From: a virus
Virus record (IMG/VR): IMGVR_UViG_3300044858_005054
Location: 1 to 40,587 of that record
DNA length: 40,587 nucleotides
Direction: 5' to 3' (one strand)
Shown: one piece after another, positions 92 to 38,088 of the stretch
Layout: each line of letters starts with the position of its first letter
Position numbering within the stretch: the stretch's first letter is position 1
The notes under the pieces: generated by a model
The model's database searches: none
Seen by the model: only the letters and a program-made list of their open reading frames with translations
Told to the model about the DNA's origin: nothing
Made by a program: the position numbers and the translations under genes

Positions 92-724
92 ATGGCAGCA
101 TATACACGCAAACAATATTCGGGCGCGGCTCGCAATACGTTAACGACGACACTCTTGACGAATGTTGGAACAACTGTTGACATTGCGGCGACCACTGGGT
201 GGCCATCCGTTGCTGGCATCCCTTTTTACGTCGTAATTCAGCCGGCTTCAATCCATGAAGAAAAGTGCCTTGCAACCATCTCTGATTCAACACTTACCTT
301 AACAAGAGCCCAAGATGACACGACTGCATCTGAGCACCCAATTGGTTCGGTCATTTACCCGGTATTTACTGCAAATGATGCTGACGAAGCTAATGAACTC
401 GTAAGCAAACTTACTACTAAAGGCGACCTGCTCACTACTGATGGAACAAATCTCCTGCGACTTGGAGTTGGTCCAAACGGATACTTTCTAAAAGCAAGCA
501 CTTCGGCATCTGCCGGCGTTGAGTGGGCATCGATACCGACAATCAACAGCCTTAATGACATTGGTGATGTAATCCTTGTCAGTGCCAGCATTGGGCAGGT
601 TTTGACATATGACGGAACAAACTGGGTTAATCAAAACTCCAGTATTGGTAGTGGTAATCTTGATGGTGGTAGTGCCGTGTCTAACTACGGAACAATTACC
701 GCGCTAGACGGAGGTTCGGCATAA
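92..724 (+). CDS. Small phage tail-fibre / structural protein
   Basis: A 210-residue protein with no catalytic motif. It has a Thr/Ser/Gly-rich, beta-type composition usual for virion fibre proteins. Around residues 108-132 it carries the module TKGDLLTTDGTNLLRLGVG, which is widespread in phage tail proteins. Next comes an IGDV-type module (near residue 150) that recurs in the following large fibre gene, then a C-terminus with two LDGGSA motifs. The start is supported by AGGAG at 82-86. Its stop overlaps the next start by one base (TAATG), indicating translational coupling and co-assembly. The most likely role is a short fibre or connector between the baseplate and the large fibre. The exact role is inferred from context. 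Confidence 0.75.
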   Translation: MAAYTRKQYSGAARNTLTTTLLTNVGTTVDIAATTGWPSVAGIPFYVVIQPASIHEEKCLATISDSTLTLTRAQDDTTASEHPIGSVIYPVFTANDADEANELVSKLTTKGDLLTTDGTNLLRLGVGPNGYFLKASTSASAGVEWASIPTINSLNDIGDVILVSASIGQVLTYDGTNWVNQNSSIGSGNLDGGSAVSNYGTITALDGGSA

Positions 725-3700
725 TGGCTGTGAGAATTCAGATAAGACGCGATACGGCCAGCAACTGGACCTCTACTAATACCGTTCTTGCTGATGGTGA
801 AATTGGTCTCGAAACAAACACCAGCAAAATCAAAATTGGTAATGGCTCTACTGCTTGGAACTCTCTTTCCTACTTTGTCGGCCATCTGCCCGGAGCAACA
901 CTCGATGCGCTCGGCGACGTAAATATAACGAGTGTTTCGAATGGCGATTTTCTTCGTTACAGCAGTTCTGCTTCAGCCTGGATTAATGACCCAGTAAACC
1001 TTTCAACCGACACGGTCGGAGACTATGTCCAGAGTCTGGTTGCTGGAACTGGCGTCACCGTAACAAACAACTCTGGGGAAGGAACAACGCCGACAGTTGC
1101 TATCGGTCAGGCTGTTGGAACTTCTGCTTCTGTAACTTTTGCAAATGTAACAGCAGACCTTGTCGGAGATGTTACTGGAAATTCCTCTACGGCAACGACA
1201 CTTGAGACATCGCGAACAATCTCGCTTACTGGCGATGTGTCTGGTTCCGTATCATTCAACGGCTCTTCTGACGCAAGCATTACTGCAACGATTCAGCCAA
1301 ACTCTGTCACCCTCGGCACCGACACAACAGGGAACTATGTAAACGATGTAACCGCTGGAACTGGCGTTTCGGTTACACACACCCCTGGTGAGGGTTCAAG
1401 CCCAACCATCGCAATTGGTCAGGCAGTTGGAACTTCATCATCAGTGCAATTTGCTGCAGTTACTGCGCCGTTGGTTGGTAATGCCTCTACCGCAACCACC
1501 CTGGAAAATGCACGAACAATCTCTTTGGGTGGAGATGTCAGCGGCTCTGTTTCATTCAATGGCTCTTCCGATGTGACGATTAACGCAACCGTACAGCCAA
1601 ACGCTGTCACTCTCGGTACAGACACCACTGGAGATTATGTTTCATCCCTGGTTGCAGGAACTGGCGTAGCCCTCACCAATAATACTGGAGAGTCAGCAAC
1701 CCCTACCGTCGCAATTGGTCAGGATGTTGGGACTTCTGCTTCGGTCACATTTGCCCATGTCTCTGCTCCAATCACTGGAAATGTAACTGGAAATGTTACT
1801 GGAAGTTCAGGTTCTACCACTGGAAACGCTGCGACTGCAACCGCCCTACAAAACGCACGCACCATATCACTTTCTGGTGATGTATCAGGTTCGGTTTCGT
1901 TTGACGGAACCAGCAACGTTTCAATTAGCGCAACAGTTGAGCCAAACTCGGTTGCGCTCGGTACCGATACAACTGGAAACTATGTCAATGACCTGACAGC
2001 CGGTACTGGTGTTTCGATAACCCACACACCCTCAGAGGGCTCAAGCCCAACCGTAGCCATTGGTCAATCGGTAGCAACTAGCGCATCTGTAACTTTTGCA
2101 AAAGTTGATACAACTGGCGACATTACCGTTGGCGGAAACCTGACAGTAAACGGAACCACAACCACTCTTAACACAGAGACGCTGGCGATTGAGGACAACA
2201 TTGTTGTTCTGAACAGCAATGTCACTGGCTCACCAGCAACCAATGCTGGTATCGAAGTAGAGCGAGGCGACTCTGCAAATGTTGTTCTGCGCTGGAACGA
2301 GTCGACCGATAAGTGGGAAACCACCAATGATGGTTCTGCATATTCCGTAATTGCAACGAACGGAAACATTGCTCTAGGAACAGACACGACTGGCAACTAT
2401 GTTAATGATTTGACCGCTGGAACGGGCGTTACTGTAACGCACACTCCTGGCGAAGGTTCTTCTCCAACGGTAGCAATCGGACAGGCTGTAGGAACCTCAT
2501 CGTCGGTACAATTCGCTGCAGTTACCGCTCCATTAATTGGCAATGCCTCTACGGCTACAACTCTTGCTACTTCACGAACAATTGAACTAACTGGCGATGT
2601 GTCTGGCTCTGTATCGTTTAACGGTTCCGCAGATGCAAGCATCTCGGCGACAATTCAACCGAATTCGGTATCACTTGGCACCGACACAACTGGCAACTAT
2701 GTTAATGATTTGACCGCTGGAACCGGCGTCACCGTAACTCATACACCTGGGGAAGGCTCAAGTCCGACCGTAGCAATTGGTCAGGATGTATCAGCATCGG
2801 TTGCTCCAACATTTGCTGGTTTGAATCTAAACGGAAGCATTGTTTTTGAAGGAGCAACTGCCAACGAGTTTGAAACAACTCTTTCAGTCACTGACCCAAC
2901 CGCAGACAGAACTATTACCTTGCCTGATGCATCAACGACTTTGGTTGGAACAGACACCACTCAAACTCTTTCTAATAAAACACTTACTACTCCAACCATA
3001 AATGGACCAGAAATCACGGCTACTGGTGGGACTCCGAGAATTCATGGTATCTATCTTCCAGAACCACATTTCATTACATTTGAGGGTGCAACAACAGATG
3101 AGTTTGAAACAGTACTCACCGTTGTTAACCCAACTGCCGATAGAACCGTAAGCCTTCCCGATGCAAGCGGAACAGTTGCACTGAGTGGAACTATTGCTCT
3201 TGGAACGGACACCACTGGAAACTATGTAAACGACCTGACAGCGGGCACGGGCGTTACCGTAACGCACACACCAGGAGAAGGCTCCAGCCCGACCGTGGCT
3301 ATTGGTCAGTCGGTAGCCACGAGCGCGTCCGTAACATTCGCTCATGTTTCGGCACCAGTAACTGGAAACGTTACCGGTGATGTTTCTGGAAATGCAGGAA
3401 CCGCTACAGCACTACAAAACCCACGCGCGATTAGTCTTGGTGGTGACCTCAGTGGGTCAGTATCATTCAATGGAACATCCGATGTAACTATCACCGCAAC
3501 AGTTCAACCAAATTCAGTAGCACTTGGGACCGACACATCTGGAGATTACGTTCAGTCGCTTGTCGCTGGTACTGGCGTAACACTTACCAACAACTCTGGT
3601 GAAACTTCTACCCCAACGGTAGCCATTGGACAAGCCGTTGGGACAAGCGCCTCGGTTACATTTGCCAAAGTTGATACAACTGGCGATGTAGTTGTCGGTG

Positions 3701-5541
3701 GAAACCTTACGGTGAACGGAACAACGACCACGCTCAATACAGAAACACTCGCCGTTGAGGACAACATCATTGTTCTTAATAACGGCGTTACTGGCTCGCC
3801 GACAACAAATGCTGGGATTGAAGTTGAGCGCGGAACATCTGCAAATGTCGCTCTTCGCTGGAATGAGACATCGGATAAGTGGGAACTCACTGAAGATGGA
3901 GCCACATACAATGAAATCGCAACCAACGATGAGGTAAGTGCAATAACCATCTCCATACTTGATGACATTGGTGATGTGTCTGCATCAGCAGCGGCTTCTG
4001 GCGACTTCCTCAAGTACAATGGCGCTGCGTGGGTCAACGACCCAATCAACCTAGGAACAGACACTGTTGGAAACTATGTCGCTGATGTTGTTTCAGGTAC
4101 GGGAATCACCATCTCGCACACCCCTGGAGAAGGTTCATCGGCATCTGTTGCCCTTAACGCGACGCTGGATGACCTCAGCAATGTCACTGCTCCATCACCA
4201 TCTGACGGAAACTTCCTCAAGTATGTTTCTGCTTCATCTGCATGGGTTCCTGCATCAATTCCGACCATCAACGCTCTTGACGATATTGGCGATGTCTCTG
4301 CTGCAGCGCCGACAACTGGACACTTCTTGCAGTGGAACGGTACTGCATGGATTCCTGCTGCTGCTGGTGGGGCACTTACTACGACATCTATTACGACAAC
4401 TTCTGCAACTGAAATTTTTTCATTCGACCCAACTTTACATGGAACCGCAGAAGTAACATTACAAATTAAACAAGGTGCTAAAAAAACTTCATCTCGTGCA
4501 TTGGTGAATCATGACGGTTCATCAACCGCCCTATTGACACAGTATGCAAAATTGGAACATGGTTCTCCAGTAATTCCAGTAACGCTTGCGGCAAATTACG
4601 ATACACAAGGGTCTTGGACTACACGTACCTCAAACTTTGGCAATACACACATCGACTCCGTGGCTTACGGCAACAACCTCTGGGTTGCCGGTGGAAACTA
4701 TGGTCAACTTCGCACCTCCACTAACGCAACAACTTGGACTACAAGAACGTCAAACTTTGGTAATACAGACATCAACTCCATCGCGTACGGCAACAACCTG
4801 TGGGTTGCTGCTGGAGACGCTGGTCAACTCCGTACATCCACAGACGCAATTACGTGGACCACACGCACATCAGACTTTACGAATCAGTACGGTCCTACGA
4901 ACATCTTCGCCGTTGCCTACGGAAACAGCCTTTGGGTCGCTGGTGGAGATTATGGTAAACTTCGCACTTCAACCGACGCTATTACTTGGGATGAGCAAAC
5001 CTCAAACTTTGGTAATACAGCCATCTTATCCGTCGCCTACGGGAACAATCTTTGGGTTGCTGGTGGCAATGATGGTCAACTTCGCACCTCGACCGACGCT
5101 ATTACTTGGGTAACACGAACCTCAAACTTTGGCGTTTATACAATTACGTCCGTCGGTTACGACAGCAACCTCTGGGTTGCTGGTGGTACTGCTGGTCTAA
5201 TTCGTACCTCAACAGACGGTACAACTTGGACAACCAGAACATCTAACTTCCTTTTTAGCATCAAATCTATTGACTACGGCAACAACCTTTGGGTGGCTGC
5301 GGGGTATTACGGAGACATGCGTACCTCAACAGATGCAATAACTTGGGTAACACAAACTTCAAACTTTACTTCAACAATCCGCTCCGTCGCCTACGGCAAC
5401 AGCCTCTGGGTTGCTGCTGGATATAGCGGTCAACTCAGAACATCTGTAGATTCAGATAAAGTTATAGTTACTGCAACTATTACAGACGCAAACGTAACTA
5501 CTGCAACAAGTAAAGCAACTATCGTGTTGACGGAGGAATAG
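724..5541 (+). CDS. Large repeat-rich tail fibre ending in a seven-bladed propeller
   Basis: A 1605-residue predicted tail fibre. Residues 1-55 (RIQIRRDTASNW, then GEIGLE and KIKIGNG) resemble the N-terminal domain of phage tropism/fibre proteins. Residues about 90-1130 are tandem shaft modules: nine LGTDT-type motifs, five GD(V/L)SGSVSF motifs, two copies of a block with VGGNLTVNGTTTTLNTETLA (near 468 and 990) and two LPDAS modules. From about 1221 comes a compact terminal domain (TSATEIF, IKQGAKK, VNHDGSS) that also occurs in the five following propeller proteins. Seven 40-45-residue repeats (W-T-T-R-T-S-N-F, then VAYGNNLWVAGG, then GQLRTSTDA) occupy about 1298-1575. The last strand of the terminal domain follows (ATITDAN). 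Its long shaft makes it the probable main adhesin. Confidence 0.85.
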   Translation: MAVRIQIRRDTASNWTSTNTVLADGEIGLETNTSKIKIGNGSTAWNSLSYFVGHLPGATLDALGDVNITSVSNGDFLRYSSSASAWINDPVNLSTDTVGDYVQSLVAGTGVTVTNNSGEGTTPTVAIGQAVGTSASVTFANVTADLVGDVTGNSSTATTLETSRTISLTGDVSGSVSFNGSSDASITATIQPNSVTLGTDTTGNYVNDVTAGTGVSVTHTPGEGSSPTIAIGQAVGTSSSVQFAAVTAPLVGNASTATTLENARTISLGGDVSGSVSFNGSSDVTINATVQPNAVTLGTDTTGDYVSSLVAGTGVALTNNTGESATPTVAIGQDVGTSASVTFAHVSAPITGNVTGNVTGSSGSTTGNAATATALQNARTISLSGDVSGSVSFDGTSNVSISATVEPNSVALGTDTTGNYVNDLTAGTGVSITHTPSEGSSPTVAIGQSVATSASVTFAKVDTTGDITVGGNLTVNGTTTTLNTETLAIEDNIVVLNSNVTGSPATNAGIEVERGDSANVVLRWNESTDKWETTNDGSAYSVIATNGNIALGTDTTGNYVNDLTAGTGVTVTHTPGEGSSPTVAIGQAVGTSSSVQFAAVTAPLIGNASTATTLATSRTIELTGDVSGSVSFNGSADASISATIQPNSVSLGTDTTGNYVNDLTAGTGVTVTHTPGEGSSPTVAIGQDVSASVAPTFAGLNLNGSIVFEGATANEFETTLSVTDPTADRTITLPDASTTLVGTDTTQTLSNKTLTTPTINGPEITATGGTPRIHGIYLPEPHFITFEGATTDEFETVLTVVNPTADRTVSLPDASGTVALSGTIALGTDTTGNYVNDLTAGTGVTVTHTPGEGSSPTVAIGQSVATSASVTFAHVSAPVTGNVTGDVSGNAGTATALQNPRAISLGGDLSGSVSFNGTSDVTITATVQPNSVALGTDTSGDYVQSLVAGTGVTLTNNSGETSTPTVAIGQAVGTSASVTFAKVDTTGDVVVGGNLTVNGTTTTLNTETLAVEDNIIVLNNGVTGSPTTNAGIEVERGTSANVALRWNETSDKWELTEDGATYNEIATNDEVSAITISILDDIGDVSASAAASGDFLKYNGAAWVNDPINLGTDTVGNYVADVVSGTGITISHTPGEGSSASVALNATLDDLSNVTAPSPSDGNFLKYVSASSAWVPASIPTINALDDIGDVSAAAPTTGHFLQWNGTAWIPAAAGGALTTTSITTTSATEIFSFDPTLHGTAEVTLQIKQGAKKTSSRALVNHDGSSTALLTQYAKLEHGSPVIPVTLAANYDTQGSWTTRTSNFGNTHIDSVAYGNNLWVAGGNYGQLRTSTNATTWTTRTSNFGNTDINSIAYGNNLWVAAGDAGQLRTSTDAITWTTRTSDFTNQYGPTNIFAVAYGNSLWVAGGDYGKLRTSTDAITWDEQTSNFGNTAILSVAYGNNLWVAGGNDGQLRTSTDAITWVTRTSNFGVYTITSVGYDSNLWVAGGTAGLIRTSTDGTTWTTRTSNFLFSIKSIDYGNNLWVAAGYYGDMRTSTDAITWVTQTSNFTSTIRSVAYGNSLWVAAGYSGQLRTSVDSDKVIVTATITDANVTTATSKATIVLTEE

Positions 5542-5543
5542 AC

Positions 5544-6770
5544 ATGGCCTTATCAAATTTTGTAGTTAGTGAAAATGTTATTGCGGACAATTTGCCCTCA
5601 TTTGACGAGGTCGCAGTTTCGGCATCTACAGTAACAACCATTTCATCTTTTAATAAAGATGTTGCAGACAATGTTGAATTCACCGTAAAAGTCACACAGG
5701 GTATCCGCAGGTATTCATCGAAGTCCCTTGCGCTGCACGATGGTTCAACTGTTGATTTGGCTCAGTATGGGGAACTGTCGATTGCTGGCTATAATCCACC
5801 TAGCACTTGGACCACCCGAACTTCAAACTTTGGTAATACGACCATCCGCTCCGTCGCATACGGAAATAACCTGTGGGTCGCTGCAGGTGGATATAGTCCC
5901 GTACTCGCCACATCCACAGACGCGGTCACATGGACCACACGAACATCAAACTTTGGTTCCTACAACATCAACTCTGTCGCCTACGGAAACTTATGGGTCG
6001 CTGGTGGGAACGAAGGTAGACTGCGCACCTCAACGGACGGAACAACTTGGACTACAAGAACTTCAAACTTTGGTAATACACACATCAAATCCGTCGCTTT
6101 TGGCAATAATCTATGGGTTGCGGGTGGATACTATGGTCAACTTCGTACATCAACAGACGCAGTAACTTGGACAACCAGAACATCAAACTTTGGTAATACA
6201 CACATCCTCGCCGTCGCTTATGGCAACAACCTCTGGGTCGCTTCTGGATACTCTGGACAAATTCGTACCTCTACAGACGGAACAACCTGGACGACCAGAA
6301 CATCCAACTTTGGTAATTCACGCATCCTCTCCGTTGCCTACGGAAACAACCTTTGGGTCGCTGGTGGGGATGGTAGTGAAGTAAGAACCTCAACCGATGC
6401 AGTAACTTGGACAACCAGAACATCAACCTTTTCTAGTAACAACAGTATTAAGTCCATTGCTTTTGGCGCCAGTTTCTGGGTTGCTGCTGGGTACAACAAC
6501 GGTCAACTGTCTACCTCAAGCGATGCCATTACCTGGACCACACAAACCTCAAACTTTGGTAATACAAACATCCACTCACTCGCTTACGGCAATAATCTTT
6601 GGGTGCTTGGTGGTGGCTACGGTCAAATCCGCACATCAGCCGTAGCATCGATAGCAATACCACTGACACTCTCCGCTGACATTTCTGGTTCAGATGTTCG
6701 ACTGCGTGCAACTATTACAGACGCGAATACATATGGTGCCACGGTAAAGGTGCTTAAGACAGTCCTCTAG
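5544..6770 (+). CDS. Propeller adhesin, one seven-blade array
   Basis: A 408-residue paralogue of the C-terminus of the preceding fibre, starting 2 nt after its stop behind a strong GGAGG site. Residues 1-88 are an N-terminal segment (MALSNFVVSENV) followed by the first half of the shared terminal domain (KVTQGIRRYSSKSLALHDGS, QYGELS). Seven repeats run from residue 89 to about 366. The domain resumes with LTLSADISGSDVRLRATITD. The propeller is therefore inserted before the LTLSAD strand, a different loop from that used in the large fibre. There is no signal peptide or membrane segment. It is probably a virion tip protein displayed on a fibre. Ligand and virion location are inferred. Confidence 0.8.
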   Translation: MALSNFVVSENVIADNLPSFDEVAVSASTVTTISSFNKDVADNVEFTVKVTQGIRRYSSKSLALHDGSTVDLAQYGELSIAGYNPPSTWTTRTSNFGNTTIRSVAYGNNLWVAAGGYSPVLATSTDAVTWTTRTSNFGSYNINSVAYGNLWVAGGNEGRLRTSTDGTTWTTRTSNFGNTHIKSVAFGNNLWVAGGYYGQLRTSTDAVTWTTRTSNFGNTHILAVAYGNNLWVASGYSGQIRTSTDGTTWTTRTSNFGNSRILSVAYGNNLWVAGGDGSEVRTSTDAVTWTTRTSTFSSNNSIKSIAFGASFWVAAGYNNGQLSTSSDAITWTTQTSNFGNTNIHSLAYGNNLWVLGGGYGQIRTSAVASIAIPLTLSADISGSDVRLRATITDANTYGATVKVLKTVL

Positions 6771-6823
6771 TATTAAGTAGTATTATTTATTAAAACCATA
6801 CACCTCGGGGAGAATGAACTGAG

Positions 6824-8131
6824 ATGGCTGATAAAAACTTCAAGGTAAAAAACGGCTTAGACATTGGCGACAGTAGGATAGAACCTACGACCACTTCGGT
6901 TACTACAAATAACGAAACAACTATTGCGACATTTGATAAATCAACAGCAAAATCCGCAGAGTTTATTGTCGAGGTCGGTCAAGGCGAACGAGCATATTCT
7001 GCAAAGGTTTTTACACTGCACAACGGAACGACTGCTGATTTTACAAAATACGGAGATTTATCATTTTCTGCTGTTGAATTAGACTTTACCACTGTTGGGA
7101 TAACATGGACTACGCAACAATCAAACTTTGGAAGCAGCAACATCCGCTCCGTTGCTCACGCCAACAACCTCTGGGTTGCTGCTGGAGATAGTGGCGCACT
7201 CGGCACATCAACCGATGCAATCACCTGGACCACAAGAACATCAAACTTTGAACCTAATGTTATGGGCAACATCTTCTCCGTGGCATACGGCAACAGCCTT
7301 TGGGTTGCTGGTGGATACGGAGGTCAAATCCGTACCTCAACTGATGCAATCACCTGGACGACGCAAACATCGAACTTTGGTAATACAACCATCCGCTCCG
7401 TTGCCTACGGAAATAATCTCTGGGTTGCGGGTGGACGCAGTGGTCAACTCAGAACTTCAACTGATGCAATTACTTGGACAACAAGAACCTCTAACTTCCC
7501 ATCCAATTTTACTGGAGATATTTTCACCGTCTCATACGGTAACAACCTGTGGGTCGCTGGCGGATATTACGGTCAACTTCGTACCTCAACTGACGCAATA
7601 ACCTGGACCACAAGAACATCAAACTTTGGTAATTACAACGTCCGCTCCGTTGCCTACGGAAATAATCTCTGGGTTGCTGGTGGAGAGGTTGGTGAACTCC
7701 GTACATCCACCGATGCAATCACTTGGACAACACGGACTTCCACCTTTGGTTATAGAAGAATTATTTCTGTCGCCTACGGCAATAACCTTTGGGTGGCTGC
7801 TGGCTACGATGGTCAAATCCGCACCTCAACCGACGCAATCACCTGGACTACTAGAACTTCAAACTTTGAAACTGATTCTATGGGCAACATCTTCTCCGTC
7901 GCCTATGGCAACAACCTTTTTGTTGCTGGTGGGAGATTTGGAAACCTCCGCACCTCTCTTCCAGGTAGTTCCTCGCGTTATGTCGGCGGTTTAACATCAT
8001 CTGCATCAGCAACATTCAACGCCGATATATCAGGTTCCGATGTGCGTCTTCGTATTACAATTCCTGATGCTGCAACAATGAACGCAACTGTTAATGTTTT
8101 GACAACAACCGTAGGAGAATCGCAATCATGA
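6824..8131 (+). CDS. Propeller adhesin, one seven-blade array
   Basis: A 435-residue paralogue. The N-terminus MADKNFKVKNGLDIGD is nearly identical to those of the two double-propeller proteins downstream. The first half of the terminal domain (GQGERAYSAKVFTLHNGT, KYGDLSF) precedes seven blades at about 95-379. Blades 2, 4 and 7 have longer first loops (for example EPNVMGN and ETDSMGN) than the usual GNT. The second half is NADISGSDVRLRITIPDA. A GGGGAG-like ribosome-binding site lies about 9 nt before the ATG. The 53-nt AT-rich gap before it is the only sizeable break in this gene run and could hold a promoter, though none is clear. The last four bases overlap the next gene (ATGA). Confidence 0.8.
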   Translation: MADKNFKVKNGLDIGDSRIEPTTTSVTTNNETTIATFDKSTAKSAEFIVEVGQGERAYSAKVFTLHNGTTADFTKYGDLSFSAVELDFTTVGITWTTQQSNFGSSNIRSVAHANNLWVAAGDSGALGTSTDAITWTTRTSNFEPNVMGNIFSVAYGNSLWVAGGYGGQIRTSTDAITWTTQTSNFGNTTIRSVAYGNNLWVAGGRSGQLRTSTDAITWTTRTSNFPSNFTGDIFTVSYGNNLWVAGGYYGQLRTSTDAITWTTRTSNFGNYNVRSVAYGNNLWVAGGEVGELRTSTDAITWTTRTSTFGYRRIISVAYGNNLWVAAGYDGQIRTSTDAITWTTRTSNFETDSMGNIFSVAYGNNLFVAGGRFGNLRTSLPGSSSRYVGGLTSSASATFNADISGSDVRLRITIPDAATMNATVNVLTTTVGESQS

Positions 8132-9387
8132 CCGAAAAAAACTTTGTTGTTTCTAAAAACATTGTGGCGCAGAACACCCCCGTCTTTAACCAAACCACTA
8201 TCTCAACAGTATCAGAAACAACTATCGCCACATTCAATAGCACTGCCGCGGAATCTGCGGATTGTATTGTAAAAGTAGAACAAGGCAACCGCCGATTCTC
8301 TGGTAAATTACTTGTTGTTCATAATGGAACTACAGCAAATGCTACAAAGTACGGTGACTCGTCTATTGCTGAAACAGCAGCGGGCTTGACAATTTGGACT
8401 ACTAGAACCTCAAACTTTGGCGATACACAGCACCGCGCTGTCGCCTTTGGCAACAATCTCTGGGTTGCTGGTGGGTACTCGGGTCAAATCCGTACTTCTA
8501 CCGACTCAATTACTTGGACAACCCGTACCTCAAACTTTGGGTTTGACATTATCCGCTCCGTTGCCTACGGCAATAACCTTTGGGTTGCTGGAGGTGGTTA
8601 CGGTCAAATACGTACCTCAACCGACGCAACAACCTGGACTACCAGAACATCAAACTTTGGTAATACACGCACCCGCACCGTAGCCTTTGGCAACAATCTC
8701 TGGGTTGCTGGTGGGTACTCGGGTCAACTCCGTACTTCGACAGATGGCACCACTTGGACAACACGGACCTCAAACTTTGGAGCCACAGCCATCCTTTCCG
8801 TCGCCTTTGGCAACAACCTGTGGGTTGCTGGTGGTAGTGCTGGTCAACTCCGAACCTCTACAGACGCTGTAACTTGGACCACAAGGACTTCGAACTTTGG
8901 TAATTATGGCATCAACGTCGTAGCCTACGGAAACAATCTTTGGGTTGCTGGTGCTGGTGGTGGTCGACTTCGGACATCGACTGACGGTACAACTTGGACC
9001 ACAAGGACTTCGAACTTTGGTAATTATTCCATCGTCTCCGTTGCCTACGGAAACAACATTTGGACGGCTGGCGGCAGCAACAATGAAATCCGCACCTCTA
9101 CCGATGCAATAACTTGGACCACGAGAAACTTCAACGTTACTGGGTCAAATATAATCTGGTCCATCGCCTACGGCAACGGAGTTTGGGTCGCTGTATCTGG
9201 CAATGATATGCGCACCTCTCTTGGAGATAGTGCCGCATATTATGTCGGCGGTTTGACATCTGCTCCATCGGTGACATTCAACGCCGATATATCAGGTTCC
9301 GATGTGCGCATTCGTATGGCAATTCCCGATGCCGACTCAAACAACGCAACTGTTAATGTTTTGACAACAACGGTAGCAGAATCGTAA
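8128..9387 (+). CDS. Propeller adhesin, one seven-blade array
   Basis: A 419-residue paralogue, translationally coupled to the preceding gene by an ATGA overlap, with an AGGAGA site 8-9 nt upstream. The N-terminus MTEKNFVVSKNIVAQ pairs with that of the 408-residue paralogue. The terminal-domain first half (VEQGNRRFSGK, VVHNGTTAN, KYGDSS) is followed by seven blades at about 90-366 and the second half NADISGSDVRIRMAIPDA. Blade 7 is the most divergent (WTTRNFNVTGS and an altered inner motif), as expected for a blade that closes a ring. The C-terminal half is very close to that of the 435-residue paralogue, suggesting a recent duplication of the pair. It ends the first plus-strand fibre block. 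Confidence 0.8.
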   Translation: MTEKNFVVSKNIVAQNTPVFNQTTISTVSETTIATFNSTAAESADCIVKVEQGNRRFSGKLLVVHNGTTANATKYGDSSIAETAAGLTIWTTRTSNFGDTQHRAVAFGNNLWVAGGYSGQIRTSTDSITWTTRTSNFGFDIIRSVAYGNNLWVAGGGYGQIRTSTDATTWTTRTSNFGNTRTRTVAFGNNLWVAGGYSGQLRTSTDGTTWTTRTSNFGATAILSVAFGNNLWVAGGSAGQLRTSTDAVTWTTRTSNFGNYGINVVAYGNNLWVAGAGGGRLRTSTDGTTWTTRTSNFGNYSIVSVAYGNNIWTAGGSNNEIRTSTDAITWTTRNFNVTGSNIIWSIAYGNGVWVAVSGNDMRTSLGDSAAYYVGGLTSAPSVTFNADISGSDVRIRMAIPDADSNNATVNVLTTTVAES

Positions 9388-9443
9388 TCACTACTAAAAA
9401 AATAAAGGTATCTTGCCTAGATTTGGAATCAACAGCAATTATG

Positions 9444-9476
9444 AAAAAAGAAACAATATTCCAATAGGTTCTTTTT
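9444..9476. terminator. Possible bidirectional terminator between convergent genes
   Basis: In the 87-nt gap between a plus gene ending at 9387 and a minus gene ending at 9475, AAAAAGAA (9445-9452) can pair with TTCTTTTT (9469-9476) around a loop of about 16 nt. Each strand has a U-run on its 3' side. The stem is AT-rich and weak, so the call rests mainly on position. Confidence 0.35.
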
Positions 9477-10395
9477 AGATATTCTTAATAACCTGTTCCC
9501 ACTGGTCTACAATTCTGTCCCATGAGTAAAAGTGATTAAAGTATCGTGACTGCTGTTTAAGCATGGGTTCATAATCCCAGTAGTTATCAATGGCTTGGTT
9601 TAGTGCAGAAGCGTATTTTTCTGCAATGCTTTTTTTATCAATCTGAATAGGAACCAGTGTCGCAAACTCTGCTCCAGTTTCAGCCAACGCCCCAAGATTC
9701 TGCCCGATAATTTTGCAACCAGCCGCACCAGCCTCAATCATCGCTAGGCAACAAGTTTCTTCAAACATGCTTGGGTAGGCAAAGATGTGTGCTTGCTGGA
9801 GAGCGGCAGTAACTTCGGTGTTTGGCGCGTACCCCATATAAAACACATTCTTCATGTTCTTTGCTCGCTCAAAAAGCGCCGTGTATTCACTGCCATGCTT
9901 TAGGTCGTAATCGGTGCCATAGACAATGGTTGATGAATAGACATAGAGTTCTACATCGTCACGGTCAAGCAACTCAAACGAGTCAAGCAATACATCTAGT
10001 CCACGGAAAGGCGCAGATGTATAGATGAGGCGAATCTTCTCGCCCTTCTTGCGCTGTTGGTATTCAACTGGCTCAATGGCGTTCTTAATTACATGTGCAT
10101 TATCGACTGGGATATGGTACACATAGCGGAACTTCTCGTGCTGCCAGTGAGATACATAGACATAAGCATCGATGCAGCGGGTGAAGAATTTGTTGGTCAT
10201 TCCCTGTGTTAGCGGCTCGTTGTAGTTGAGGTGCTGCCAAAGGATGTTCTTTTTGCTCATGTCAATCTGGTCTTCAGTGCACCGTGAAAGAATAAGGTTG
10301 ACATTGTAGTCATCAAAGTTAATCCTCTTACGGAGTCCATCTTCCATGATGTCCGAACCTCCCCGTGGAGGAAGTTTGGCGCTCAACTCGGCCAT
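9475..10395 (-). CDS. GT4-like (GT-B fold) glycosyltransferase
   Basis: A 306-residue cytoplasmic glycosyltransferase that probably transfers a sugar from a nucleotide-sugar donor. The C-terminal Rossmann-like half shows the family pattern: an IKNAIEP stretch, then RLIYTSAPFRGLDVLLDSF, then the donor-site segment FEETCCLAMIEAGAAG with the conserved acidic pair. At 306 residues it is shorter than typical GT4 enzymes (about 350-400), with a reduced N-terminal acceptor domain. It overlaps the upstream glycosyltransferase gene by 13 nt, so the two probably form one operon transcribed away from the methyltransferase gene. Acceptor and product are unknown: the candidates are host surface glycan or the phage's own fibre proteins. 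Confidence 0.8.
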   Translation of the reverse strand: MAELSAKLPPRGGSDIMEDGLRKRINFDDYNVNLILSRCTEDQIDMSKKNILWQHLNYNEPLTQGMTNKFFTRCIDAYVYVSHWQHEKFRYVYHIPVDNAHVIKNAIEPVEYQQRKKGEKIRLIYTSAPFRGLDVLLDSFELLDRDDVELYVYSSTIVYGTDYDLKHGSEYTALFERAKNMKNVFYMGYAPNTEVTAALQQAHIFAYPSMFEETCCLAMIEAGAAGCKIIGQNLGALAETGAEFATLVPIQIDKKSIAEKYASALNQAIDNYWDYEPMLKQQSRYFNHFYSWDRIVDQWEQVIKNI

Positions 10396-11054
10396 CGCAA
10401 CTTCACTGTCTTTTGATGACCAACACGAACAAGTGGGTCAACCCAGATATCAATTCCCATCTGGTGAACCTTTTCGCACCACGACAAGTCTTCTCCCATG
10501 AGCGGGAACTTGTACTCATCTTGACCAGTCTCTGGGTTCTGAACTGTCACATGTGTTGACGAGAACCATGGGCGCGGAAGGCTCTCAAATACGCCAGAAG
10601 CAACTGCCAAGAAACCGAATCCAACTCCACGAGTGGTAAACGGCGCTTTGAGTTTTAAGATGTCATCTCGATGTAGAGGTGGTCCGAGTGGTACTGGGTA
10701 AACAGTGACCTCTTCGCTTTCCATCATGTAGCACCCAGAAATAACTTGCTTGTCTGAATTCAGGAGCCTAAAGAAGTCATCTGGCTCCCACTCAATGTCG
10801 GAGTCAATCCAGAACAACTTGTCGTATGTCCATTCCCCATTGGCAGGCTTTTGGCATGTCTTGTCATTGAAGGCACTTCCACCCAGCGTGCGCTCTCTGG
10901 CGTCAGCGACATGCGAAGAATACTCCGTCATGAAGTTCCAGGTGATGTTGTTCTGGTTCATGTAATAGGTGACCTTTAGCAGGCTCCGTACATAAGACGG
11001 GGTCATGCTTGAGCCTGGTGTGCAGATAACTACATTGAAGTGTGGGATTGTCAT
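10383..11054 (-). CDS. GT-A-like glycosyltransferase, paralogue of 17457-18137
   Basis: About 223 residues from ATG at 11054. GTG at 11093 and ATG at 11063 are alternative starts. I prefer 11054 because a TAGAAT hexamer lies exactly 7 nt upstream and the conserved part (FNVVICTPGSSM) begins at once. A central LFWIDSDIEW gives the acidic DxD-type motif that binds metal and nucleotide sugar in GT-A enzymes. The later GVGFGFLAV, LPRPWF and GEDLSWCEK segments are shared with the paralogue at 17457-18137. No transmembrane helix is visible. The acceptor is unknown. It heads a two-gene operon with the GT4-like gene and is divergent from the methyltransferase gene across about 60 nt. Confidence 0.75.
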   Translation of the reverse strand: MTIPHFNVVICTPGSSMTPSYVRSLLKVTYYMNQNNITWNFMTEYSSHVADARERTLGGSAFNDKTCQKPANGEWTYDKLFWIDSDIEWEPDDFFRLLNSDKQVISGCYMMESEEVTVYPVPLGPPLHRDDILKLKAPFTTRGVGFGFLAVASGVFESLPRPWFSSTHVTVQNPETGQDEYKFPLMGEDLSWCEKVHQMGIDIWVDPLVRVGHQKTVKLRWPS

Positions 11055-11061
11055 AAAAGCC

Positions 11062-11067
11062 ATTCTA
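11062..11067 (-). promoter_or_regulatory. -10-like hexamer for a leaderless start
   Basis: TAGAAT on the minus strand, followed by 7 nt and then ATG at 11054. There is no Shine-Dalgarno sequence and no good -35. The same geometry is seen at 11104, 18989 and 37561. Transcription starting at the A of the ATG is inferred. Confidence 0.45.
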
Positions 11068-11103
11068 TACAGGATATATTGCAATACGGGCACCGATTTG
11101 TGT

Positions 11104-11109
11104 TACAAT
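11104..11109 (+). promoter_or_regulatory. -10-like hexamer for a leaderless start
   Basis: TACAAT followed by TTGGTCT and the ATG at 11117, a 7-nt spacing without a Shine-Dalgarno sequence. A weak -35-like TTGCAA lies at 11079-11084 with a long 19-nt spacer. It shares a 62-nt divergent intergenic region with the minus-strand promoter at 11062. Confidence 0.5.
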
Positions 11110-11116
11110 TTGGTCT

Positions 11117-11767
11117 ATGAAACTCCACGGAACTTACGCCTTTGATGAGGCTTTCGCAGCAACAATCTCCACAGCCCTGAATGCTTCGTATTCAGACAAG
11201 GCATCTGGTCATGGGTACGACAAGGTATTCGCCCACCTGTTTGAGGGTAAGACTGTGGATAACTTTCTTGAAATTGGTTTATTTTTAAACGAACTTCAGC
11301 ACACCGACCTCAATGCATGGGCTTCGGTATTCCCATCTGCGAACATCTACGGAGCAGACAAGAAAGAGTCGCAATTGTTTAATTCTGGGAAAATCAGCAC
11401 GCATGTTATTGACCAGGAAGTTGCAGCATCATTTGATGCCCTAAAGGCAGCCTTCGCTGTTGAATTTGATGTAGTCCTTGACGACGCATCGCACATCTAC
11501 GCCAATACGGTCACTACATTTGAAGCGCTTTTCCCAGCGGTTAAGACTGGCGGAATGTATCTGATTGAAGACATTCAAGACGCTGGCGCACACGCTAACG
11601 ATTGGCAGCAAACGCTTGTCCAACTAGAAGCGTACATGACCGCAGAAGGACACACATATGAGGTGTTTCAGTCGGCTGTTCCTCGAAAAGTCATGGACCG
11701 CGAAACTATGGAACCAACAGAAGAAGATGCGGTTTCTGATAGTTACATCCTCTGCGTTTATAAGTAA
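11117..11767 (+). CDS. Class I SAM-dependent methyltransferase-like protein
   Basis: 216 residues resembling the small-molecule/sugar O-methyltransferase group related to macrocin and rhamnosyl methyltransferases. Visible features in order are FLEIG (strand 1, motif I), FPSANIYGADK (strand 2 with an acidic ribose-contacting residue), FDVVLDDASH (motif with the DD pair that can bind metal) and LFPAVKTGGMYLIEDI. Motif I continues as LFLNE, not the usual Gly-x-Gly, so the cofactor loop is atypical and activity is not certain. It lies alone just upstream of two double-propeller genes on the same strand. It may modify a sugar added by the neighbouring glycosyltransferases. That target is inferred. 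Confidence 0.7.
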   Translation: MKLHGTYAFDEAFAATISTALNASYSDKASGHGYDKVFAHLFEGKTVDNFLEIGLFLNELQHTDLNAWASVFPSANIYGADKKESQLFNSGKISTHVIDQEVAASFDALKAAFAVEFDVVLDDASHIYANTVTTFEALFPAVKTGGMYLIEDIQDAGAHANDWQQTLVQLEAYMTAEGHTYEVFQSAVPRKVMDRETMEPTEEDAVSDSYILCVYK

Positions 11768-11835
11768 AAAGAGAGTTTTACTATGTTGCTAATTTTAGGC
11801 GCGCGATTCAGTCTAGGTGAACGGAGTACCCGTTC

Positions 11836-13950
11836 ATGGCTGATAAAAACTTCAAGGTAAAAAACGGACTGAGCATTGGCGACAATGTCGCTACCTATGT
11901 CACAAAAGTTACAATTAACTCCAATAGCGAAACAACCCTTGACTCCGTTCTGACTGGGACTGTAGAGTCAGTGGACTATTCATTGACCCTGTATCAGGGT
12001 GATGGAGCGATATTAAAGAAGTACCTATCAGTAGAAAACGGCTCTTCTGTTTCGGCACATGAATACGCATCTGGCAGTGTTAACAGAAGTGAATACTCTG
12101 GTGCATGGAACTGGACTACTCGCACCTCAAACTTTGGCAACACACACATCCGCTCCCTTGCCTACGGAAATAATTTATGGTCCGCTGGTGGGGAGTATGG
12201 CCAACTCCGCACATCCACCGACGGCACAACATGGACTACACAGACCTCAAACTTTGGCAACGCACCCATTTTGACCCTCGCCTATGGTAATAACCTTTGG
12301 GTTGCTGCTGCTACGTCGGGTGGACTCCGCACCTCTACCGATGCCGTTACTTGGACTACGAGAACATCAAACTTTGGTGCATCGGGTGTTATTTGGTCAG
12401 TTGCAAACGGAAACAGTTTATGGGTTGCTGTTGGTCGATATGGAAATATCCGCACCTCGACTGATGGAATAACCTGGGTTACACGAACATCGAACTTTTC
12501 TAACACTGAAATCTACACCGTAGCCTTCGGAAACAGCCTTTGGGTCGCTGCTGGAAGTGGTGGCCAACTTCGTTCCTCGACAGATGCAGTAACGTGGACT
12601 ACAAGAACATCAAACTTTGGTGATACACACATTATGTCCGTCGCATACGGCAACAGCCTTTGGGTTGCTGGTGGAGAGGCTGGGCAACTCCGCACATCCA
12701 CCGACGGTACCACTTGGACCACAAGGACTTCAAACTTCGATACTGTAGGGCCTTCACGCATCCGCTCAATCGCCTACGGAAACAACCTTTGGGTTGCGGG
12801 TGGATACTATGGTGAACTCCGAACCTCTACCGATGCAATTGCCTGGACCACAAGCAAGACCAACTTTGGAAATACACGAATCCGCGCCGTTGCTTACGGA
12901 AATAGCCTTTGGGTCGCTGCTGGGTACTCTGGTCAAATCCGCACCGCTGTCGATTTGAACCCATCTGCGGCCGTTCCAGCAACAGTGTCAATAAGCCTGC
13001 AACAAACCTGGACAACCCGTACCTCAAACTTTGTTCATAATGTTTTTGGTATACAAAACATCCGTTCGGTTGCCTACGGCAGTAACTTTTGGGTCGCTGT
13101 TGGAAATTATGGAACACTTCGTACATCAACTGATGCTGTTAGTTGGATTACACGTACATCAGGATTTGGCAACACAGCCATTCACTCCGTCGCCTTCGGA
13201 AACAATCTTTGGGTTGTTGCTGGCACCAATGGTCTGCTCCGCACCTCGACCGACGAAACTAGTTGGACCGCCCGCACATCAAACTTTGGTGCCACAACCC
13301 ATATCAATTCAGTTGCCTTCGGAAATAGTTTGTGGGTCGCAGGTGGTCAGACTGGCCAACTCCGTACATCCACAGATGCAATAACTTGGACCACTCGAAC
13401 CTCGAACTTTGGTACTACACATATTAACTCCGTAGCCTTCGGAAACAGCCTTTGGGTCGCTGCTGGCTACAACGGTGAACTAAGAACTTCAACAGATGCT
13501 ACAACCTGGACTACTAGAACCTCCAATTTTGGCACCACGCGCATCCAGTCCGTAGCCTTTGGCAACAGTCTGTGGGTTGCTGGTGGATATAATGGTCAAC
13601 TGCGAACCTCAACGGATGGAACCACCTGGACCACTCGAACTTCAAACTTTGTTTCAACAATCCTCTCAGTCACCTACGGCAACAACCTTTGGGTTGCTGG
13701 TGGTCGATATGGAAATATCCGTACCTCCACCGATGCAATTACCTGGGTTACACAAACATCCAACCTTACAACAACCATCCGCTCCGTCGCCTACGGAAAC
13801 AGCCTTTGGGTCGCTGCTGGGTACAACGGTCAAATCCGCACCGAAAACCCAGCAGAAAGAACGCTCAAATTAACGGCAACCGTTACTAGCGCAGGAGTAA
13901 TTGGTTCTGAAGCAACAGCCATTTTAATTAAGGAAACTGTTGTGGCATAA
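11836..13950 (+). CDS. Double-propeller adhesin (7 + 7 blades)
   Basis: 704 residues. It has the N-terminal tag MADKNFKVKNGLSIGD, then the first half of the shared terminal domain (LYQGDGAILKKYLSVENGS). A first array of seven repeats runs from residue 93 to about 372. A 19-residue link that corresponds to one domain strand follows (PSAAVPATVSISLQQ). The second array of seven is at 392 to about 672, then the last strand (TLKLTATVTSAG). Both loops used singly in the paralogues are thus occupied here. The start has GGAG at 11823-11826, 9 nt before the ATG. Blade 7 of array 1 (WTTSKTNF) and of array 2 (WVTQTSNL) are the divergent ones. It is probably a virion receptor-binding protein. The next gene overlaps by one base. 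Confidence 0.8.
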   Translation: MADKNFKVKNGLSIGDNVATYVTKVTINSNSETTLDSVLTGTVESVDYSLTLYQGDGAILKKYLSVENGSSVSAHEYASGSVNRSEYSGAWNWTTRTSNFGNTHIRSLAYGNNLWSAGGEYGQLRTSTDGTTWTTQTSNFGNAPILTLAYGNNLWVAAATSGGLRTSTDAVTWTTRTSNFGASGVIWSVANGNSLWVAVGRYGNIRTSTDGITWVTRTSNFSNTEIYTVAFGNSLWVAAGSGGQLRSSTDAVTWTTRTSNFGDTHIMSVAYGNSLWVAGGEAGQLRTSTDGTTWTTRTSNFDTVGPSRIRSIAYGNNLWVAGGYYGELRTSTDAIAWTTSKTNFGNTRIRAVAYGNSLWVAAGYSGQIRTAVDLNPSAAVPATVSISLQQTWTTRTSNFVHNVFGIQNIRSVAYGSNFWVAVGNYGTLRTSTDAVSWITRTSGFGNTAIHSVAFGNNLWVVAGTNGLLRTSTDETSWTARTSNFGATTHINSVAFGNSLWVAGGQTGQLRTSTDAITWTTRTSNFGTTHINSVAFGNSLWVAAGYNGELRTSTDATTWTTRTSNFGTTRIQSVAFGNSLWVAGGYNGQLRTSTDGTTWTTRTSNFVSTILSVTYGNNLWVAGGRYGNIRTSTDAITWVTQTSNLTTTIRSVAYGNSLWVAAGYNGQIRTENPAERTLKLTATVTSAGVIGSEATAILIKETVVA

Positions 13951-16082
13951 TGGCTGATAAAAACTTTAAAGTAAAAAACGGACTGAGCATTGGCGACAAC
14001 GTCTCTACATACGTGACCAGTGTTGTAATCAACACTGGCGAAGAAACGACACTTGATTCTGTACTGACTGGCACAACGGAGTCTAATGATTATTCATTGA
14101 CGATTTACCAGGGTGCTGGGGTTATCTCAAAAAAGATACTTGCAACGGAAAACGGCGCAGGAGCATCAACCCATGAGTATGGCTCGGTTTCTGTAAACAG
14201 AAGTGAATACTCTGGTGCATGGAACTGGACTACTCGCACCTCAAACTTTGGCATGACAGAAATCGCTGTACTCGCCTACGGTAACAACCTCTGGGTTGCT
14301 GGTGGATATGGCGGTCAACTCCGCACCTCTACCGATGCTACAACCTGGACGACCAGAACCTCAAACTTTGGTAATACAGTTATTTACACTATTGCGTTCG
14401 GCAACAACCTCTGGGTTGCTGGTGGGTATCAAGGTTTTATTCGAACCTCAACTGATGCAATAACCTGGACGACACGAACATCGAACTTTATTGACGATGG
14501 TGGCAATACCGCCTATGCACGAGTACGCTCACTGGCTTATGCCAATGGCATATGGGTCGCTGGGGGTTACTACGGTCAACTTCGCACATCGACCGACGGT
14601 ACCACTTGGACAACAAGAACTTCAAACTTTGGCAATCAACACATAAAATCCGTTGCCTTTGGCAATAATTTATGGGTTGCTGGTGGAGGTTACTCTCCTG
14701 GGCAAATCCGAACCTCCACCGACGGAACCACCTGGACAACACAAACTTCAAACTTCGGTTCAGGTTTAGCCATTGATACAGTCGCCTACGGTAATAACTT
14801 ATGGGTTGCTGGTGGGTATGGTGGAGGAATTCGAACCTCAACTGATGCAATAACCTGGACGACACGAACATCAAACTTTGGCACTACATTCATCCGCTCC
14901 ATCTCCTACGGGAATGGTTTGTGGTTCGCAGTTGGAAGCGCTGGTCAAATCCGTAATTCGACTGACGGAATTACATGGACCACGCGCACCTCAAACTTTG
15001 GTGTTACAAACATCAACTCCATTGCTTACGGTAACAGTCTTTGGGTTTCTGGTGGTATAACTGGCCAAATCCGTACCGCCAGTGAAATTAATACACCAGC
15101 GGCCATCCCAGTGACAACCTCAATTGTTCTAGGGCAAACCTGGACAACCCGCACCTCAAACTTTGGCAATACGTCAATTGAATCCGTGGCCTTCGGAAAC
15201 AACCTCTGGGTTGCTGGTGGGTACACGGGCCAAATAAGAACTTCAACCGACGCAGTCACCTGGACAACCAGAACCTCAAACTTTGGGAATACCCAAATCA
15301 AATCCGTCGCCTACGGCAACAACCTTTGGGTTGGTGTTGGTGGTGCTTTTGGGACTTCTGGTGAAATTCGTACATCAACTGATGCCGTCACTTGGACCAC
15401 AAGAACATCCAACTTTGGAACTACGCGCATCCAGTCAGTAGCCTACGGGAACAGCCTTTGGGTGGCTGGAGGGGACACTGGTCAACTCCGTACTTCAACT
15501 GACGGTACAACCTGGACTACAAGAACATCAAACTTTGGTAACAGCGCCATATTCTCCGTCGCTTACGGCAATAACCTCTGGGTCGCTGGCGGAGACAGTG
15601 GTCAACTACGCACCTCAACCGACGGTACAACTTGGACGACACGAACATCAAACTTTGGCACTACATTCATCCGCTCCATCGCCTATGGCAATAACCTTTG
15701 GGTTGCTGGTGGCCATTATGGTCAACTCCGCACCTCCACCGACGGAACCACCTGGACAACACAAACTTCAAACTTTGGTGGTACTACTCATATCATCTCC
15801 ATTGCATACGGAAACAGTTTGTGGGTTGCTGCTGGTAATACTGGTCAACTTCGTACCTCAACAGACGCAATCACTTGGAACACCACCACTTCAAACTTTA
15901 CAACAAGTATTCTCTCCGTCGCCTTTGGCAACAGCCTTTGGGTTGCTGCTGGACGAACTGGTCAACTCCGCACAGAAAATCCAGCAGAGCGACAACTAAG
16001 ACTCGCAGCAACCGTTACCAACGGCAATGTGGCTGGTTCGGAAGCAACAGCGATTCTAAAGAAAAAAACGGTTGTTGCATAA
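13950..16082 (+). CDS. Double-propeller adhesin (7 + 7 blades)
   Basis: 710 residues, the closest relative of the preceding gene and coupled to it (TAATG overlap). It has the same N-terminal tag, the same terminal-domain half (IYQGAGVISKKILATENGA) and an identical stretch of more than 50 nt at the entry to blade 1 (from about 14197; compare about 12083). Array 1 spans residues 93 to about 379, the linking strand (AAIPVTTSIVLGQ) follows, array 2 spans 398 to about 676, and the final strand is LRLAATVTNG. Array 1 blade 3 has a long insertion (IDDGGNTAYA). Exact 44- and 48-nt segments are shared between the two arrays in reversed order, suggesting blade shuffling. The stop lies 2 nt from the end of a convergent glycosyltransferase gene. 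Confidence 0.8.
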   Translation: MADKNFKVKNGLSIGDNVSTYVTSVVINTGEETTLDSVLTGTTESNDYSLTIYQGAGVISKKILATENGAGASTHEYGSVSVNRSEYSGAWNWTTRTSNFGMTEIAVLAYGNNLWVAGGYGGQLRTSTDATTWTTRTSNFGNTVIYTIAFGNNLWVAGGYQGFIRTSTDAITWTTRTSNFIDDGGNTAYARVRSLAYANGIWVAGGYYGQLRTSTDGTTWTTRTSNFGNQHIKSVAFGNNLWVAGGGYSPGQIRTSTDGTTWTTQTSNFGSGLAIDTVAYGNNLWVAGGYGGGIRTSTDAITWTTRTSNFGTTFIRSISYGNGLWFAVGSAGQIRNSTDGITWTTRTSNFGVTNINSIAYGNSLWVSGGITGQIRTASEINTPAAIPVTTSIVLGQTWTTRTSNFGNTSIESVAFGNNLWVAGGYTGQIRTSTDAVTWTTRTSNFGNTQIKSVAYGNNLWVGVGGAFGTSGEIRTSTDAVTWTTRTSNFGTTRIQSVAYGNSLWVAGGDTGQLRTSTDGTTWTTRTSNFGNSAIFSVAYGNNLWVAGGDSGQLRTSTDGTTWTTRTSNFGTTFIRSIAYGNNLWVAGGHYGQLRTSTDGTTWTTQTSNFGGTTHIISIAYGNSLWVAAGNTGQLRTSTDAITWNTTTSNFTTSILSVAFGNSLWVAAGRTGQLRTENPAERQLRLAATVTNGNVAGSEATAILKKKTVVA
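14712..14755 (+). repeat. 44-nt exact repeat between propeller arrays (copy at 15732-15775)
   Basis: This stretch of array 1 of the 710-residue adhesin is identical over 44 nt to 15732-15775 in array 2. Most blades encode the same residues with different synonymous codons, so exact identity points to recent copying. Confidence 0.8.
14856..14903 (+). repeat. 48-nt exact repeat between propeller arrays (copy at 15633-15680)
   Basis: Identical over 48 nt to 15633-15680 in array 2 and covering the variable loop GTTFIRS. It follows the 44-nt repeat in array 1 but precedes it in array 2. Confidence 0.8.
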
Positions 16083-18981: not shown

Positions 18982-18988
18982 GCCTGGT

Positions 18989-18994
18989 AGTATA
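18989..18994 (-). promoter_or_regulatory. -10-like hexamer for a leaderless start
   Basis: TATACT on the minus strand, then ACCAGGC, then ATG at 18981. The 7-nt spacing is the same as at 11062, 11104 and 37561. No convincing -35 is seen. Confidence 0.55.
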
Positions 18995-18996
18995 GT
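18991..18996 (+). promoter_or_regulatory. -10-like hexamer for the divergent gene
   Basis: TATAGT on the plus strand, 12 nt before ATG at 19009. This predicts a very short leader of about 5-6 nt. It overlaps the minus-strand -10, so the two divergent promoters would compete. Confidence 0.4.
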
Positions 18997-19008
18997 CGCA
19001 TTACGCTT

Positions 19009-20893: not shown

Positions 20894-20900
20894 TTTATTG

Positions 20901-38060: not shown

Positions 38061-38088
38061 AATTCCTCCGTGTCTTTACTTTATTTTC

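Follow-up and report, generated by a model that had tools for sequence, protein, structure and literature searches.

The window analyzed here is a stretch of 40,587 nucleotides of viral DNA (IMG/VR record IMGVR_UViG_3300044858_005054, positions 1 to 40,587). Six of its genes, here named g1 to g6, carry tandem repeats in arrays of exactly seven units. With a probability of roughly 70%, these genes encode tail-fibre or tail-tip proteins with seven-bladed s-Asp-box propellers placed in the loops of a carrier domain, exposing one variable, host-binding face that would be renewed by mutation and recombination. The carrier is a predicted beta-sandwich of which propeller-free ("empty") homologues are found in other phages. 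The features of the region are the following; carrier values are E-values of the joined propeller flanks against an HMM of empty carriers.

724..5541, + strand: g1 (ORF call), 1605 aa, tail-fibre-like; N-terminal Mtd_N, then a long repeat shaft and a C-terminal carrier sandwich with one propeller in loop site 2
4306..4614, + strand: N-terminal part of the g1 carrier sandwich, ending ...IPVTLAANYDTQGS, by alignment (joined-flank HMM 2.5e-14 to empty carriers)
4615..5451, + strand: g1 propeller array, 7 blades (repeat profile)
5452..5538, + strand: C-terminal part of the g1 carrier sandwich, DKVIVTATITDA... (empty-carrier HMM on joined flanks)
5544..6770, + strand: g2, 408 aa; putative anchor and carrier with one propeller in site 1 (carrier HMM 1.1e-18)
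5808..6638, + strand: g2 propeller array, 7 blades (repeat profile; AlphaFold2 model)
6824..8131, + strand: g3, 435 aa; putative anchor (MADKNFKVKNGL) and carrier with one propeller in site 1 (carrier HMM 1.4e-19)
7106..7957, + strand: g3 propeller array, 7 blades (repeat profile)
8128..9387, + strand: g4, 419 aa; putative anchor and carrier with one propeller in site 1 (carrier HMM 7.4e-18)
8395..9219, + strand: g4 propeller array, 7 blades (repeat profile)
9475..11767: genes for a glycosyltransferase (- strand), phrog_1574 (- strand) and a methyltransferase (+ strand) between g4 and g5
11836..13950, + strand: g5, 704 aa; putative anchor and carrier with propellers in both sites (carrier HMM 3.8e-6)
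12112..12954, + strand: first g5 propeller, 7 blades, site 1 (repeat profile)
12955..13008, + strand: carrier strand separating the two g5 propellers (NPSAAVPATVSISLQQT; carrier alignment)
13009..13842, + strand: second g5 propeller, 7 blades, site 2 (repeat profile)
13950..16082, + strand: g6, 710 aa; putative anchor and carrier with propellers in both sites (carrier HMM 1.2e-5; DUF6242 2e-10)
14226..15086, + strand: first g6 propeller, 7 blades, site 1 (repeat profile; AlphaFold2)
15141..15974, + strand: second g6 propeller, 7 blades, site 2 (repeat profile; AlphaFold2)

The profile-based count gave 7, 7, 7, 7, 14 and 14 repeats for the six ORFs, in total 56 units from 4615 to 15974. Blade length was mostly 40 aa and ranged from 39 to 47 aa among these 56 repeats. 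Both 14-blade genes were composed of 7 + 7 blades with a linker of about 18 aa in between. The sequence-only reading had arrived at the same eight arrays and 56 blades from motif starts, and its statement that six or eight blades never occur is correct within the window (8/8 arrays). It had further described a family of paralogues. This understates the arrangement, in which the propeller is a cassette in two carrier loops and blades are shuffled between arrays. Assembly collapse of repeats is an unlikely source of the count, because the 56 blades are pairwise at most 83% identical in DNA and the whole propeller region was found again at 100% identity in a separate viral contig of 160 kb (G001), of which the window forms a part.

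Structure prediction supports a closed ring of seven four-stranded blades, as had been proposed from the fixed count. The AlphaFold2 model of g2, computed together with seven relatives, reached a mean pLDDT of 82 and a pTM of 0.77 and showed four strands in each of seven blades (in a typical blade A 181-187, B 190-195, C 200-203 and D 210-212 according to DSSP). No open solenoid was seen in the predicted structure. In the g2 array a first W-strand precedes blade 1, and the last blade has no strand beyond C; such an arrangement is expected of a ring in which the first strand completes the last blade. When the model was compared with the PDB by Foldseek, the seven-bladed designer protein 7big_A was matched with a TM of 0.80 by target (rmsd 3.2) and Ycf48 with a TM of 0.74. 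The eight-bladed Tako8 had the lowest E-value, yet its TM was just 0.61. Among viral models the top TM was that of a DUF6242 phage protein (0.84, rmsd 2.0). For g6 two propellers were predicted with a pLDDT of 70; one out of five models was good and the carrier region was of low confidence. Its top PDB match was 2ymu, a highly repetitive propeller structure, and the low Foldseek TM of this model is probably due to the free placement of the two rings.

The motif STDGTTW, initially read as an Asp-box one residue short, exactly matches the published s-Asp-box consensus S/t-X-D/n-X-X-X-W (PMC2716378). The residues S, D and W occupy columns 35, 37 and 41 (column 1 of the next blade) in nearly all 56 blades, and in the g2 model (DSSP) the motif forms the turn between strands 3 and 4, i.e. 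the C-D turn. s-Asp-boxes were described in one or two copies in 5-bladed GH32/GH43 propellers (Quistgaard & Thirup 2009, PMC2716378); nothing besides this defining paper was found in the literature on them. Against the Pfam family DUF6242 (PF19755), for which no paper was found, g6 scored above the gathering cut-off of 29 bits (41.3 bits) and g5 below it (27.6 bits), and the other four genes gave no match. A sequence search for a solved relative of the propellers returned none that was convincing. Kelch repeats were rejected, since summed scores passed the Kelch models in Pfam whereas almost no single stretch did.

The residues flanking the propeller in the g2 model form nine strands, six before and three after it. 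Propeller-free homologues of this carrier are located at the C-terminal end of the annotated tail fibre of cyanophage S-TIM66 and of the fibres of loci L013 and L015, which share a g1-like start; further empty carriers are present in L014, L053 and L134. An HMM built from these six empty domains matched the joined flanks in the order g3, g2, g4, g1, g5, g6 (E 1.4e-19 to 1.2e-5), and none of the shuffled or reversed controls fell below 2.8. The joined flanks of g1-g4 matched at the 1e-14 level or better, those of g5 and g6 only weakly (3.8e-6 and 1.2e-5). Both propeller flanks are homologous to the C-terminal domain of annotated fibres, i.e. to a phage tail-fibre carrier domain of the S-TIM5 type. 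Two insertion points could be read from the alignment relative to the strand IPLTLSADIS: propellers are located before it in g2, g3 and g4, after it in g1, and on both sides in g5 and g6. Insertion into a loop needs a closed ring whose ends meet, which fits propellers in carrier loops.

The first 10-15 residues (MADKNFKVKNGL and variants) also begin unrelated fibre-like proteins in L013, L014 and L015, which suggests that they may act as a shared virion anchor. The start of g1 matched Mtd_N in Pfam (1.3e-13), and the protein matched the PHROG families minor tail and tail fibre (1e-45 and 1e-38). An adhesin role is plausible because of the tail-fibre carrier, the Mtd_N start of g1 and the one hypervariable face described below. 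The propellers could instead be Hoc-like decorations on the head or tail sheath that bind carbohydrates or mucus and particles, and thus mediate adhesion to surfaces without host choice. Several tandem genes of the same kind do suggest a high display, the PHROG of the upstream gene is just "virion structural protein", and a stand-alone propeller of the Actinomycetia phage DSL-LC01 has collagen-like neighbours. We nevertheless consider general decoration rather unlikely. The carrier and the Mtd_N start indicate fibres, and the variable face has lost all positional identity when related genomes are compared, which is more in line with a moving target than with general stickiness. For g2-g6, which are linked to the tail by homology and position, a head-decoration role is possible.

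A role as Ycf48-like photosystem II assembly factor, encoded as an auxiliary metabolic gene, is hardly credible. It would account for the structural match to Ycf48 and for the annotation of the DSL-LC01 relative as "photosynthesis system II assembly factor", but only the fold matches: no PSII_BNR match was found in Pfam at E 0.1. Moreover, the propellers are inserted in fibre carriers, and the closest tail sheaths are from phages of actinobacteria, which have no photosystem II.

The highest-entropy columns over the 56 blades are, in order, 12, 14, 29, 28, 10, 11 and 31. These seven columns carry different 7-tuples in 55/56 blades, compared with 13 combinations at seven frame columns. At the other columns the protein is near-fixed or varies conservatively, and the codon differences are silent; they often affect about half of the blade pairs. 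The same columns were the most variable ones over 54 arrays from many phages. In the g2 model (DSSP), columns 10-12 and 14 fall within the D-A loop and the beginning of strand A, and columns 28, 29 and 31 within the B-C loop. Judged from the strand order of the model, the seven columns would share one face, which amounts to about 49 residues in each ring. On the opposite face are two conserved turns, A-B and C-D, the latter with the s-Asp-box. In Asp-box propellers the corresponding face is the variable and functional one (PMC2716378).

Asp-box propellers are common among glycosidases (PMC2716378), and a xyloglucan-degrading enzyme of Cellvibrio was among the Foldseek matches. However, such enzymes keep invariant catalytic residues on the top face, whereas no part of the present propellers varies more than this face, and no glycosidase family in Pfam or NCBIfam scored above its cut-off. 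That g1-g6 are tail-spike glycoside hydrolases or sialidases is thus very improbable. Neutral variation has to be considered as well: the seven columns might belong to weakly constrained surface loops with no role in ligand choice, and at saturated divergence their nonsynonymous share is indeed near that of unconstrained codons. This explanation appears improbable, since variability is limited to one face and the A-B and C-D turns opposite, although also loops, are conserved. Furthermore, T, N, Y, Q, R and S are abundant among the variable residues, and the same pattern of pairs around a fixed residue has been reported under positive selection in fungal HNWD propellers (PMC1805685). A ligand-binding role of the variable face remains our preferred reading.

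Blade order is largely lost between the arrays of the window. Blades at the same position shared a base identity of 0.695 compared with 0.687 for other pairs, and the nearest neighbour of a blade was usually found in another gene at another position. Duplication of whole arrays with the blade order kept was rejected on these values for most pairs, with the exception of g1 and the first g5 array, which retain a weak order (0.73 vs 0.66). Recent amplification of one blade was rejected as well, since silent sites differ in about half of the blade pairs at many columns. Between genomes the residues at the variable columns were not retained. When this genome was compared with the related G002, the match at variable columns was 0.18 at the same position and likewise 0.18 at other positions, as opposed to 0.77 for the frame. 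The glycosyltransferase adjoining the propeller genes is 93% identical in G002 and the propeller count is still seven.

The near-identical giants L027 and L036 differ throughout one seven-blade array (nucleotide identity 0.77-0.88, remainder 0.93-1.00), and the count remains seven. This difference is most simply explained as replacement of a whole array. Within the replaced array 22 nonsynonymous and 6 synonymous differences were found at variable columns and 25 and 34 at frame columns (p=0.0025). A second comparison gave 7:0 and 17:27, respectively (p=0.003). The contrast shows differing constraint on variable and frame columns and may reflect positive selection; the ratio of 22:6 is close to the expectation under no selection, and relaxed constraint could account for part of it. 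A diversity-generating retroelement was rejected as the source of variation. No reverse transcriptase (RVT_1) was found in G001 or G002, contigs which may be incomplete, and the codon spectra at variable columns are not adenine-only.

The survey of relatives covered about 120 viral loci (many sharing contigs), isolate-phage stretches and four bacterial genome contigs. Distinct, untruncated arrays of at least three blades were counted, with all blades at 20 bits or more. Exactly seven blades were present in 54/65 arrays, 46 of them outside this genome. Among the eleven remaining arrays two are runs of 14 and about 21 blades, three reach seven if degenerate blades recognized by eye are included, one runs into a contig end and one is a weak match (L128). 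A single irregular giant ORF (L045/L092) accounts for two more, and the other two appear to hold five blades each (L053 and the last array of L049). Longer runs were found with 14 blades in L025, L040 and L043, 21 in one ORF of L099 and about 21 in L052; L025 carries 14 blades in the slot that holds seven in its relative L027. Where apparent counts of 4-6 were obtained (L038, L113, L114, L120, L121 and L126), degenerate extra blades are present by eye. Between the blades of the two five-blade arrays (L053, L049) identity reaches up to 88-93%, and assembly collapse is possible for both.

Freely varying blade numbers, which would argue against a closed ring, were not seen in this tabulated profile search, the exceptions being the two arrays of five and the one irregular giant. 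The seven-blade rule is strong but not absolute. The L053 gene (5935-7416) is intact and has a similar anchor motif and just five very similar blades, a number that is either real or the product of assembly collapse. Some giant ORFs (L027:3745, L043:4360 and L045:1126; 1,362-2,058 aa) consist almost entirely of propeller arrays, with degenerate blades between conserved sevens. The DSL-LC01 propeller has seven blades and no other domain. Among viral models, BFVD A0A1V0SF56 and M1PQ47 are propellers at 34-35% identity, one of them annotated as a collagen-repeat protein of Hokovirus, a giant virus; collagen-like genes also adjoin the propeller of DSL-LC01.

Contractile tail genes for sheath and tube are located at 37611-39546. 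The sheath is closest to its counterparts in Gordonia and Arthrobacter phages (about 36%), and actinobacterial metagenome bins are among the bacterial relatives of the propellers; on the basis of both, an actinobacterial host is possible. The tail gene region also encodes a 1648-aa protein (31889-36835, - strand), perhaps the tape measure, without a tblastn match among phage isolates. Three closely spaced 2OG-Fe(II) oxygenase-like genes are present at 20285-23449 (- strand).

Genes for glycosyltransferase, phrog_1574, DUF6065 and sulfotransferase repeatedly adjoin propeller genes in many contigs, and the glycosyltransferase, phrog_1574 and methyltransferase of the g4-g5 interval recur near propeller genes in many related contigs. 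In the window, glycosyltransferases, two copies of phrog_1574, DUF6065 and a methyltransferase surround the propeller genes at 9475-11093 and 16085-20121. The sulfotransferase gene (Sulfotransfer_3, phrog_27463; 18100-18981, - strand) likewise recurs near propeller genes in related contigs. The module appears to move between phages, because the adjoining glycosyltransferase is 93% identical between G001 and G002 whose terminases are just 47% identical, and because a methyltransferase of 93% identity is encoded in G006, in which the sheath had no match.

Taken together, each of g1-g6 would end in, or consist of, a short virion anchor followed by the nine-stranded beta-sandwich carrier of a contractile-tailed phage. 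One or two closed propellers would be inserted into one or both of the two sandwich loops. The conserved blade frame would build the ring, and seven residues per blade would form the variable face, which may bind host-surface structures, most likely glycans or envelope proteins. Specificity could be renewed by mutation of the face, blade shuffling and whole-array replacement through homologous recombination among near-uniform repeats, with ring closure selecting for seven blades. The counts, the fold as a model, the insertion sites, the variable columns with their place in the blade, the scrambling and one whole-array replacement are results of this analysis; the location in the virion, the ligand and a selection for new specificities are what we infer.

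It is an open question by what means phages that lack a dedicated mutator alter their host recognition. Because scaffold, variable positions and copy-number rule can in this case be read from the sequence, diversification through blade shuffling and array replacement becomes directly testable. The scrambled composition at a held count also represents a natural experiment on why there are seven blades. More tentatively, the system might be an independently evolved, antibody-like phage repertoire on a fixed ring, with eight rings per genome and about 49 variable positions on each. Renewal would proceed without reverse transcriptase, some 56 interchangeable blades recombining with each other and closure holding the count at seven; such a system would be for bacterial viruses what HNWD allorecognition is for fungi.

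Propellers in phage structural proteins were already known. What is new is the use of two insertion sites in the carrier, the restriction of hypervariability to one face while the frame is frozen, and blade scrambling under a constant count. Related blades occur in phage structural proteins, namely DUF6242 (PF19755) and phage "BNR repeat" proteins (e.g. S-CBWM1 gp119 and the insertion in S-CAM9 gp7). Those examined have one degenerate propeller, without the two-site carrier insertion or uniform blades. With the Asp-box and s-Asp-box propellers (e.g. Ycf48, sialidases, GH74; PMC2716378) the arrays share the C-D turn S-T-D-x-x-T-W, which is an s-Asp-box, and in that superfamily seven blades occur and a variable, functional top face is combined with a conserved bottom face. 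Here, in contrast, the s-Asp-box is present in nearly every blade of a seven-bladed ring, and the blades are near-uniform and not irregular.

Propellers that arose by amplification of single blades and are highly repetitive (PMC9218822; solved example 2ymu) are known in all kingdoms including viruses and resemble the arrays in internal repeat similarity and double rings. They are viewed as recently amplified, whereas the phage blades are far diverged at silent sites, fixed in the protein frame and without order. The receptor-binding protein Mtd of Bordetella phage BPP-1, which is varied by a diversity-generating retroelement, shares its N-terminal domain with g1, and a variable binding face is suggested in both. 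There, however, a C-type lectin fold is varied by a reverse transcriptase, of which no RVT_1 counterpart was found in G001 and G002.

In the way of varying, the propellers resemble the HNWD genes of Podospora anserina (HET-D, HET-E), for which renewal of this kind has been proposed. In these genes selected codons flank a fixed codon pairwise; they map to the D-A loop and to the B-C turn at the top of a WD40 propeller (PMC1805685), and AlphaFold models show two seven-bladed rings (PMC12222747). Both systems have highly similar tandem blades, exchange repeats among family genes and vary on the top face, at residue pairs that flank a conserved residue in the D-A loop and in the B-C turn. The fungal proteins are NLR receptors of the WD40 lineage whose repeat number varies between alleles, whereas the phage propellers belong to the s-Asp-box lineage, are carried by fibres and keep seven blades per ring; neither NACHT nor WD40 was found by Pfam. 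The likeness is one of working and varying and not of descent. As a second, unrelated instance of paired variable residues flanking a fixed one on a top face, the phage propellers suggest a general design for repeat-based recognition.
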